This document shows positions 17,626-55,423 of a stretch of 64,000 bases of DNA, piece by piece. The stretch covers positions 62,001-126,000 of the forward strand of contig NZ_JASAMB010000002.1 in NCBI RefSeq assembly GCF_029948125.1. The letters run 5' to 3'. Below the pieces are notes generated by a model that searched no databases, was not told the origin of the DNA, and saw only the letters and a list, made by a program, of their open reading frames with translations. The stretch's first letter is position 1; every line of letters begins with the position of its first letter. Origin of the DNA: Catellatospora sp. KI3 (GTDB lineage: Bacteria; Actinomycetota; Actinomycetes; Mycobacteriales; Micromonosporaceae). The position numbers and the translations under genes were made by a program.

Positions 17626-18150
17626 TCAGTCCAGACCGCCGTTGGCCCGGATCGCGTCGCGCTTCATCCGCTGCGCGCGGGCCAGCTCGGCGTCGCTGAC
17701 GACGACACCGCCGAACGCCTTCACCGCCTGGTAGTAGGTCCAGGCCAGGCTGGTGCAGGCCGGGCGCACGACCACGTTGTAGGTCGCGCACTTGCGCTTG
17801 AGGTCCTCGTAGAAGGCGCTGTCCAGGCGGGACTTGTTCGCCGGGAACTGCCCCATCTCCTTGTAGTTGCGGTAGCCGAAGTCGTGGCGGTAGCAGGAGA
17901 GCTTGAAGTCGAACCCGATCGGGTTGTCCGGGCTGGACGAGCAGTAGTCCGTGCCCCAGCTGAACGCGTACGCCGACCACGAGCCCTGGTTCTGCCGGGC
18001 CGAGTTCCAGGCGTTGTAGCTGGCGGAGCTGGTCTGCGTCCAGCCGGAGAGCACGGACAGCTTCTCCTCGGCGGTGACCGCGGCGGCAGGGGTGGCCAGC
18101 GCCAGTACGGCCGTGAGGGTGGTGAGCGGGACGAGCAGGAGGCGCTTCAC
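17626..18150 (-). CDS. Secreted prokaryotic phospholipase A2
   Basis: 174 residues. A Sec signal peptide is clear: '[20 protein letters not shown]' followed by an AAA cleavage region near residue 24. The mature part carries the catalytic pair His89-Asp90 in '[12 protein letters not shown]', the signature of the Streptomyces-type phospholipase A2 family. Cys pairs (70/86 and two near the C-terminus) could form two disulfides. It would hydrolyse the sn-2 ester of phospholipids outside the cell, normally Ca2+-dependent. It is monocistronic by context, with convergent and divergent neighbours. Confidence 0.92.
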
Positions 18151-18400: not shown

Positions 18401-19657
18401 ATGTCCCACTCCGACCGTGACTTCGACCCCTGGGGCGACCGGCGTGACCGGCGCGATCAGGACCCCTCCCGCCAGGAGCGGCAGCCGTCCGACCCGCCGC
18501 CGAACGGCTATCCACAGCCCGGGGGTTATCCACAGCAGGGCGGCCATCCGCAGGCGGGTTATCCACAGCAATCAGGCGATTACCCACAGCAACGCGGTGG
18601 ATATCCCCAGGGCGGCCCCGCGCAGGGCTACGGCCAGCAGCCGCAGTACGGCCAGCAGCCCGGCTACGGCCAGCCCGGTTATCCACAGCCTGGCCAGGCC
18701 CAGCCCGGCTACGGCCAGCAGCAGCCCGGCTACGGCGGCCAGCAGGCCTATGGCCAGCAGCAACAAGCCTATGGCCAGCAGGAGCCCGGCTACGGCCAGC
18801 AGCAGCCCGGCTACGGCCAGCCGGGTCACCCGCAGCAGGGTTACCAGCAGCAGGGCTACGGCCAGCAGGACGGCTACGGCCAGCAGGGCGGTTATCCACA
18901 GCAGGGTTACCAGCAGCAGGGCTACGGCCAGCAGGCGCACCCGCAGCCGGCCTACGCTCCCGCCCCGCGGCAGGAGGACGACTACCCCGGCTGGGGCGAC
19001 GTCGCGCCGCAGCCCGAACGCGGCCGCCGCCATCCGATCATCGAGAAGCGCCGGAAGAAGTCCCGCAAGGGCCTGTGGATAACCATGGTGGTCTTCCTGG
19101 TGCTGTGCGGCGGCGGCGCGGCCGGCGGATACTGGATCTTCAACAAGGCCAAGGACACGGTCGAGGACGTCGCCGACAAGGTCAACGACGCCGACCGGAT
19201 CTCGGTGGTCGAGCCGAAGACGCTGGGCGGGCGGGCCAGGAGCACCGACCCGGGGCTGGCCAAGACGGTCAACGAGCTGAAGTCCGGCATGGCCGCCGAC
19301 CTGCCCGGCGCGACCTCGTCGGTGGCGGCGTACTACGGCTCGGCGGAGAAGAAGAACCTGACCATGGCGTTCGCGGTGTCGGTGCTGAACCCCGCGCCGC
19401 AGGCCGCGCTGGACGCGTTCACCTCGGCGGCGACCTCCCAGCTCGGCAAGGTCACGTTCGAGAAGGTGGAGCCGGGCCCGCTGGGCGGGCTGGCCCAGTG
19501 CGGCCAGGGCGCGGTCAGCGGGGTGCCGGTCGCGATCTGCGTGTGGGCGGACAACGGCAGCGTGGGCATGATCATGTACTTCGCGCAGAACTTCGCCTCG
19601 ATCAAGACCAAGTTCGCCGCCGAGCGCGGCGAGGTCGAGAAGAAGGCCACCGCCTGA
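18401..19657 (+). CDS. Gly-Tyr-Pro-Gln repeat single-pass membrane protein
   Basis: 418 residues. The first ~195 are cytoplasmic low-complexity repeats of GYPQ, GYGQQ and GYGQP units. A basic stretch ('[12 protein letters not shown]') precedes one membrane helix near residues 226-247 ('[20 protein letters not shown]'). An outer domain of ~170 residues follows, with no domain I recognise. The architecture resembles Gly/Tyr/Gln-rich actinobacterial envelope proteins. The repeat DNA uses GGT-TAT-CCA-CAG codons that are atypical of this GC-rich genome and spell DnaA boxes. ATG 18401 is preceded by GGGAG. Function unknown; a phase-separating or polar scaffold role is speculation. Confidence 0.85.
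18508..19082. promoter_or_regulatory. Cluster of DnaA-box sequences inside the coding repeat
   Basis: Perfect TTATCCACA copies lie at 18526, 18559, 18679 and 18892 on the plus strand, and TGTGGATAA (the same box on the minus strand) at 19074-19082. One-mismatch copies lie at 18508 (CTATCCACA) and 18580 (TTACCCACA). Four arise from the Gly-Tyr-Pro-Gln codons, but the fifth comes from unrelated codons (Leu-Trp-Ile-Thr) that include the very rare ATA. The sequence is certain; binding by DnaA is not shown. Confidence 0.5.
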
Positions 19658-55414: not shown

Positions 55415-55423
55415 TGTGGATAA
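55415..55423. promoter_or_regulatory. Single DnaA-box sequence
   Basis: TGTGGATAA is a perfect DnaA box on the minus strand, beside the palindrome GTCCAC-A-GTGGAC (55391-55403). Both lie in the 366-base spacer 55302-55667, which also has the inverted repeat GACAGAT/ATCTGTC (55547-55569) and no convincing gene. Confidence 0.35.

Follow-up and report, generated by a model that had tools for sequence, protein, structure and literature searches.

We wish to know why a protein-coding gene of Catellatospora should carry, within its reading frame, an array of DnaA boxes written in very rare codons. The gene (18401..19657, + strand; 418 residues by translation) lies in a 64-kb stretch of DNA, the whole of which was analysed and which we call the window, and it has orthologues in all ten other genomes of the genus. 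It contains five perfect copies of TTATCCACA and two copies with one mismatch, all at the positions given by the original prediction. Four perfect copies are on the + strand, at 18526..18534 and 18559..18567 (both in the codons GGT TAT CCA CAG), 18679..18687 and 18892..18900. The one-mismatch copies, also on the + strand, are CTATCCACA at 18508..18516, in the codons GGC TAT CCA CAG, and TTACCCACA at 18580..18588, in the codons GAT TAC CCA CAG. The fifth perfect copy, at 19074..19082 on the - strand, lies in the codons CTG TGG ATA ACC, which encode LWIT; these are unrelated to the other box codons and include a rare ATA, just as had been claimed. The five perfect boxes span 557 bp. That is, several consensus DnaA boxes stand close together at a place away from oriC.

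Could such an array arise by chance? In 100 dinucleotide shuffles of the window, the mean number of exact TTATCCACA copies is 0.02 for the whole window, in agreement with the earlier statement that far less than one such 9-mer is expected in 64 kb. The window itself contains six, the sixth of which, at 55415 (-), the original prediction had overlooked, and at least six copies are reached in 0/100 shuffles. These trials, together with the shuffles of synonymous codons described below, rule out a chance origin of the boxes.

The repeat in the N-terminal part of the gene provides an internal control for its own codon usage. Tyr-Pro-Gln (YPQ) units are spelled TAT CCA CAG in five of seven cases; in the Tyr-Gly-Gln (YGQ) units of the same repeat the tyrosine codon is TAC in 9/11, and a preceding T is found in 0/11. 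Thus the contrast originally drawn between rare codons in the boxes and GC-rich synonymous units nearby holds. As a codon reference we use ten coding stretches (5378 codons, some of them in stop-to-stop frames), in which TAT makes up 0.8% of Tyr codons, CCA 1.0% of Pro, GGT 9.6% of Gly and ATA 0.4% of Ile, the last figure counting the box's own ATA. Sampling from this usage predicts 0.003 boxes for codons 1-230 of the window protein, against five observed, a contrast that may be overstated because the reference stretches are largely conserved genes. A safer control is the synonymous shuffle within the gene, which retains any regional A/T-rich codon use. For the N-terminal part of the gene in the present genome (G000), such shuffles give a mean of 0.41 boxes and reach five in 0 of 5000 trials, which rules out regional A/T-rich codon use as the explanation of this array. 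Local codon bias does explain part of the pattern, because the YPQ units of the window gene that are not boxes are also rich in A/T-ending codons. Among the 11 rows of the genus, the observed number of boxes is reached in 0 to 18 of 5000 shuffles, the 18 being in genome G005. Over the whole genome, in coding and other DNA alike, GGNTAYCCNCAR is matched 43 times; GGTTATCCACAR accounts for 19 of these, and TAC is used in 18 of the other 24.

As the original prediction proposed, we counted the word over the full genome and at oriC. The 8.2-Mb genome has 37 copies of TTATCCACA and 0 of its reversal; for TTGTCCACA and its reversal the counts are 18 and eight. In the ten other genomes of the genus, TTATCCACA has 22 to 35 copies each and its reversal 0 to 6. 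We judge 28 of the 37 copies to be intergenic, by eye from open frames and without a gene caller. They include copies ahead of dnaA, dnaB and a recQ-like gene, in the gyrB-gyrA interval (the gene names being assigned from the sequences), and beside two parS-like sites. The nine coding copies are confined to two genes, the window gene with five and a gene for a dacB-type peptidase with four; outside these two, at most three copies stand together anywhere in the genome list. At locus L039 (G000:C56, 203-455), boxes are interleaved with two copies of the parS-like word GTTTCACGTGAAAC, the former at 203, 247 and 415 and the latter at 262 and 441.

Degenerate boxes are numerous in the 900 nt following dnaA, which include oriC; TTGTCCACA is present once there and TTATCCACA is absent. 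Copies of TTATCCACA flank dnaA and adjoin copies of TTGTCCACA, and oriC has one-mismatch versions of the word. The encoded DnaA carries the helix-turn-helix sequence GGRDHTTV, which functions in recognition of the DnaA box. We also considered whether the window array might be oriC itself, and rejected this: the array is not next to dnaA and dnaN, the interval between which lies near 9.8-10.6 kb of contig C9, the window being on C12.

Two finished genomes of the genus, G003 and G008, in which oriC was checked by dnaA and dnaN motifs, allow the position of the sites to be examined along the chromosome. Within 700 kb of oriC, a limit that was picked after seeing the data, we find 25 of 30 TTATCCACA sites in G003 and 18 of 22 in G008, where about 16% are expected; counted as clusters, the figures are 13 of 18 (p = 1.4e-7) and 10 of 14 (p = 7e-6), respectively. 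The window array is 479 kb from oriC in G003, 523 kb in G008 and about 468 kb in a third genome, G009; the array in dacB is 232 kb, 238 kb and about 213 kb from oriC in the same three, the G009 distances being obtained by subtraction from the site list with oriC placed via its neighbouring box pair. Both arrays are on the same arm in G003 and in G008. The boxes appeared to be co-oriented with the replication fork (25/30 sites in G003, 16/22 in G008); by cluster the counts are 15/19 (p = 0.02) and 10/15 (p = 0.30), and we make no claim of co-orientation. As a separate observation, the DnaA helix-turn-helix motif and the dnaN start motif of G003 (L118, 12960-15007) are about 2.0 kb apart, versus 0.8-0.9 kb in the present genome and in G008; an insertion near oriC of G003 is possible.

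We next asked whether related genomes keep the boxes. Catellatospora tritici, the sole named relative recovered, shows 91% identity and coincides in its coordinates with G005. Orthologues of the window gene carry two to five perfect boxes in 11/11 genomes of the genus, and boxes are still present in eight orthologues that are only 47-52% identical to the window gene over the part compared. Box number and spacing drift between species. At the box at 18559..18567 the codons GGT TAT CCA are unchanged in 11/11 genomes in the alignment used; at the LWIT box, ATA is found in 3/11 and ATC in 8/11. Ahead of YPQ, a T-ending codon is found in 50 of 106 units, versus 193 of 2702 codons for the same set of residues elsewhere in the gene. 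The expectation that orthologues keep the boxes is thus borne out throughout the genus and does not extend to distant relatives: at 17 loci outside the genus (L064-L080), where the open frame was picked by a script and may be wrong for some, five contain YPQ units, 16 in all, and no box occurs at any of the 17. Given the same word upstream of dnaA, gyrA and dnaB, and boxes in all 11 orthologues, the 9-mers of the window gene are very probably, as predicted, DnaA boxes maintained at the DNA level.

A second array within coding sequence lies in the dacB-type gene (L042, G000:C16, 2684-2821), beyond the reach of the original prediction; it is better conserved than that of the window and is the stronger case. 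The gene we call dacB encodes a D-Ala-D-Ala carboxypeptidase (PF02113, E = 2.8e-69). It has three or four boxes in 11/11 genomes of the genus, the first three of which are spaced 45 and 33 bp apart in all 11. The residue before Tyr varies in dacB, yet its codon keeps a final T: the codon before YPQ is T-ending in 43 of 51 units, across eight different residues; for codons of these residues in the rest of the gene the figure is 342 of 5941. In shuffles of 13 dacB rows, the observed number of boxes is reached in 0 or 1 of 5000 trials per row. Additional YPQ units in dacB of G002 and G008 yield words that differ from the box by one base, such as ATATCCACA.

The two genes can be compared by a codon test that is restricted to columns where the amino acid is invariant among the 11 genomes, and that asks how often an identical A/T-ending codon is found in all of them. 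In dacB this is so in 7 of 10 box columns versus 5 of 286 others (p = 2.5e-9), and in the window gene, where the repeat alignment is less certain, in 4 of 11 box columns versus 2 of 82 others (p = 0.0015); both p-values are descriptive, because the rows are related. The five exceptional columns of dacB outside the boxes comprise two from a YPP unit spelled TAT CCA, one after a box, and two near the start of the gene. Selection on the box clusters in relatives is thus indicated for both genes, by boxes in 11/11 genomes and by the codon test alike.

Beyond the genus, dacB arrays occur in two genomes, G028 and G019, each of which is the only representative of its genus here. Five perfect boxes fall within 108 bp of dacB in G028. 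YPQ is the reading of two and LVHT that of one, a TTGTCCACA; the remaining two are on the other strand and are read as PVDN. Because frame and strand differ in this way, the box appears to be selected as a site in double-stranded DNA, and a translational reason is unlikely. The G028 gene is flanked by ppa and tilS motifs, as in Catellatospora. In G019, dacB has four boxes, all of them YPQ, after T, R, L and G; ppa is present in the stretch examined, and tilS was not found there. A dacB tree of 26 rows contains perfect boxes in 13 (11 Catellatospora, G028 and G019), and no box in the stretch examined in the other 13, which come from other genera and families; four of the 30 dacB loci (L110-L113) were excluded from the tree, with a box in 0/4. 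Catellatospora and G028 group at 100/100; G019 has no firm place in the tree. The presence of boxes needs two changes on this tree, and there may have been a single origin. In yet another genus of Micromonosporaceae (G017), a pair of TTATCCACA at 18-bp pitch belongs to an intergenic repeat, about 120 bp long and dispersed, that is common to 10 of 12 pair loci (L119, which has diverged, and L121-L129) and has a core present in 20 exact copies in the genome. The repeat resembles a small mobile-like element by which DnaA boxes would be scattered.

The host protein of the window array, a predicted membrane protein, consists, in order, of an N-terminal part rich in G, Y, P and Q, a basic stretch, a single hydrophobic segment and a C-terminal domain; a Pfam search finds no family at E <= 0.1. 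Because the basic stretch and the one hydrophobic segment come after the repeat, the repeat is probably cytoplasmic, and the C-terminal domain alone probably lies outside. The original description as a surface protein would therefore suit the C-terminal domain and not the repeat. The divergent neighbour (17629-18150, - strand) encodes a prokaryotic phospholipase A2 (PF09056, E = 1.2e-35), and a motif of this enzyme is also found near the array gene at L136 (G009) and L083, and was not found at L135 (G003).

The sites, then, are in excess over chance, are conserved, and crowd around oriC, and the most economical account of them is a set of DnaA sites kept around oriC, two clusters of which lie inside genes. 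We think it rather likely that the 9-mers are DnaA-binding sites selected as DNA within coding sequence and probably titrating DnaA, although both binding and titration are what we infer. The window array would then belong to a set of perfect-box clusters that is found outside oriC across the genus and that would bind DnaA tightly. Those near oriC would double soon after initiation and draw DnaA off oriC, whose own boxes are mostly degenerate, and a new round would wait until more DnaA had been made. The gene would hold its sites by means of very rare codons, GGT TAT CCA CAG for GYPQ and CTG TGG ATA ACC for LWIT. Some of the low-complexity peptide may then be a side effect of the DNA sites.

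The main rival is local gene regulation, in which array-bound DnaA would regulate its own host gene (together with dacB and the divergent ppa) by looping or by a roadblock near the start of the transcribed region, coupling envelope proteins to replication, with titration secondary. We regard this as possible, if doubtful. Both arrays occur early in their reading frames, the dacB spacing is fixed in 11/11 genomes of the genus, and ppa is divergent from dacB in the present genome, G003, G028 and G019, all of which would suit such regulation. However, box number and spacing in the window gene are not fixed, the arrays are within the frames, not ahead of them, and most other clusters are intergenic, many of them near oriC. 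Titration is favoured because of the position near oriC, because boxes are perfect outside oriC and degenerate inside it, and because spacing in the window gene drifts; on this analysis we would rank it ahead of local regulation.

The remaining explanations dispense with DnaA or with function altogether. It is improbable that the boxes are a functionless accident of repeat growth, in which the repeat expanded by copying an initial GGT TAT CCA CAG unit: the window-gene units are indeed near-copies of one another, and the one-off units have A/T-rich codons too, but YGQ units of the same repeat use TAC, the same word occurs in two unrelated genes, box codons are fixed while others change, the codon before Tyr ends in T whatever its residue, G028 uses another frame and strand, and the LWIT box stands apart. 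Selection on translation, with rare codons slowing the ribosome ahead of the membrane segment, is scarcely credible; the rare codons do lie upstream of the hydrophobic segment, but rarity is limited to those codons that complete the 9-mer, YGQ codons not being rare, G028 reads the same 9-mers as PVDN and LVHT, and most copies in the genome are intergenic. We consider it very improbable that the word serves a different DNA-binding protein and not DnaA. In its favour, oriC is without a perfect TTATCCACA, and TTGTCCACA is the high-affinity box listed for S. coelicolor and M. tuberculosis in PMC4285127; the same paper, however, lists TTATCCACA as the box of E. coli and B. subtilis, and copies of the word flank dnaA and stand beside TTGTCCACA, with one-mismatch versions in oriC.

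Clusters of DnaA boxes outside oriC are of a known kind. In the Streptomyces chromosome, such clusters were reportedly proposed, in a 2006 paper in J. Bacteriol., to act in the control of replication. The listed Streptomyces word is TTGTCCACA (PMC4285127), whereas TTATCCACA is the commoner in the Catellatospora genome, 37 versus 18. In B. subtilis there are several DnaA-box clusters outside the origin, oriC-proximal according to a cited title (Okumura et al. 2012, in PMC5295017); deletion of six is described in PMC5295017 as causing early initiation, which was interpreted as the loss of DnaA-holding sites. For the B. subtilis gene rplB, PMC4447404 describes an internal site that is strong in vitro and unbound in vivo. 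Like these, the Catellatospora clusters lie outside oriC, but two of them are written in conserved codons.

The best-studied DnaA-box cluster that influences initiation, datA of E. coli, offers a contrast to the coding arrays. According to PMC5295017 and PMC4585315, datA has five high-affinity boxes at one locus, is a negative regulator of initiation, and is described as non-coding, dependent on IHF, and promoting DnaA-ATP hydrolysis. The window array shares with datA the five boxes at one locus; it lies, however, in a conserved frame of 418 codons, and the IHF consensus WATCAANNNNTTR has 0 matches in the window, where just 0.03 would be expected by chance. To our knowledge, actinomycetes are without an IHF of the E. 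coli type. The term datA-like in the original prediction may thus describe a possible effect only, and we do not class the array as datA, because two of its defining features, non-coding DNA and an IHF site, are absent from the window locus on inspection.

In searches of the open-licence literature we recognised no description of DnaA arrays in coding sequence of Micromonosporaceae and, as far as those searches show, what is new here is the conserved arrays spelled in the codons of two genes. We put at about an even chance the broader proposition that a branch of the Micromonosporaceae keeps DnaA-binding control arrays inside genes, where selection for TTATCCACA would dictate rare codons and even peptide, such that YPQ, PVDN, LVHT and LWIT would be boxes read in different frames or strands and the low-complexity part would be partly a by-product. 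If this is true, these genes would offer an actinomycete system for testing titration purely through synonymous substitutions, which leave the protein as it is, and would caution that certain 'disordered repeats' could be DNA sites read out as peptide. In these organisms, arrays conserved within codons would be an instance of a replication signal shaping protein sequence.
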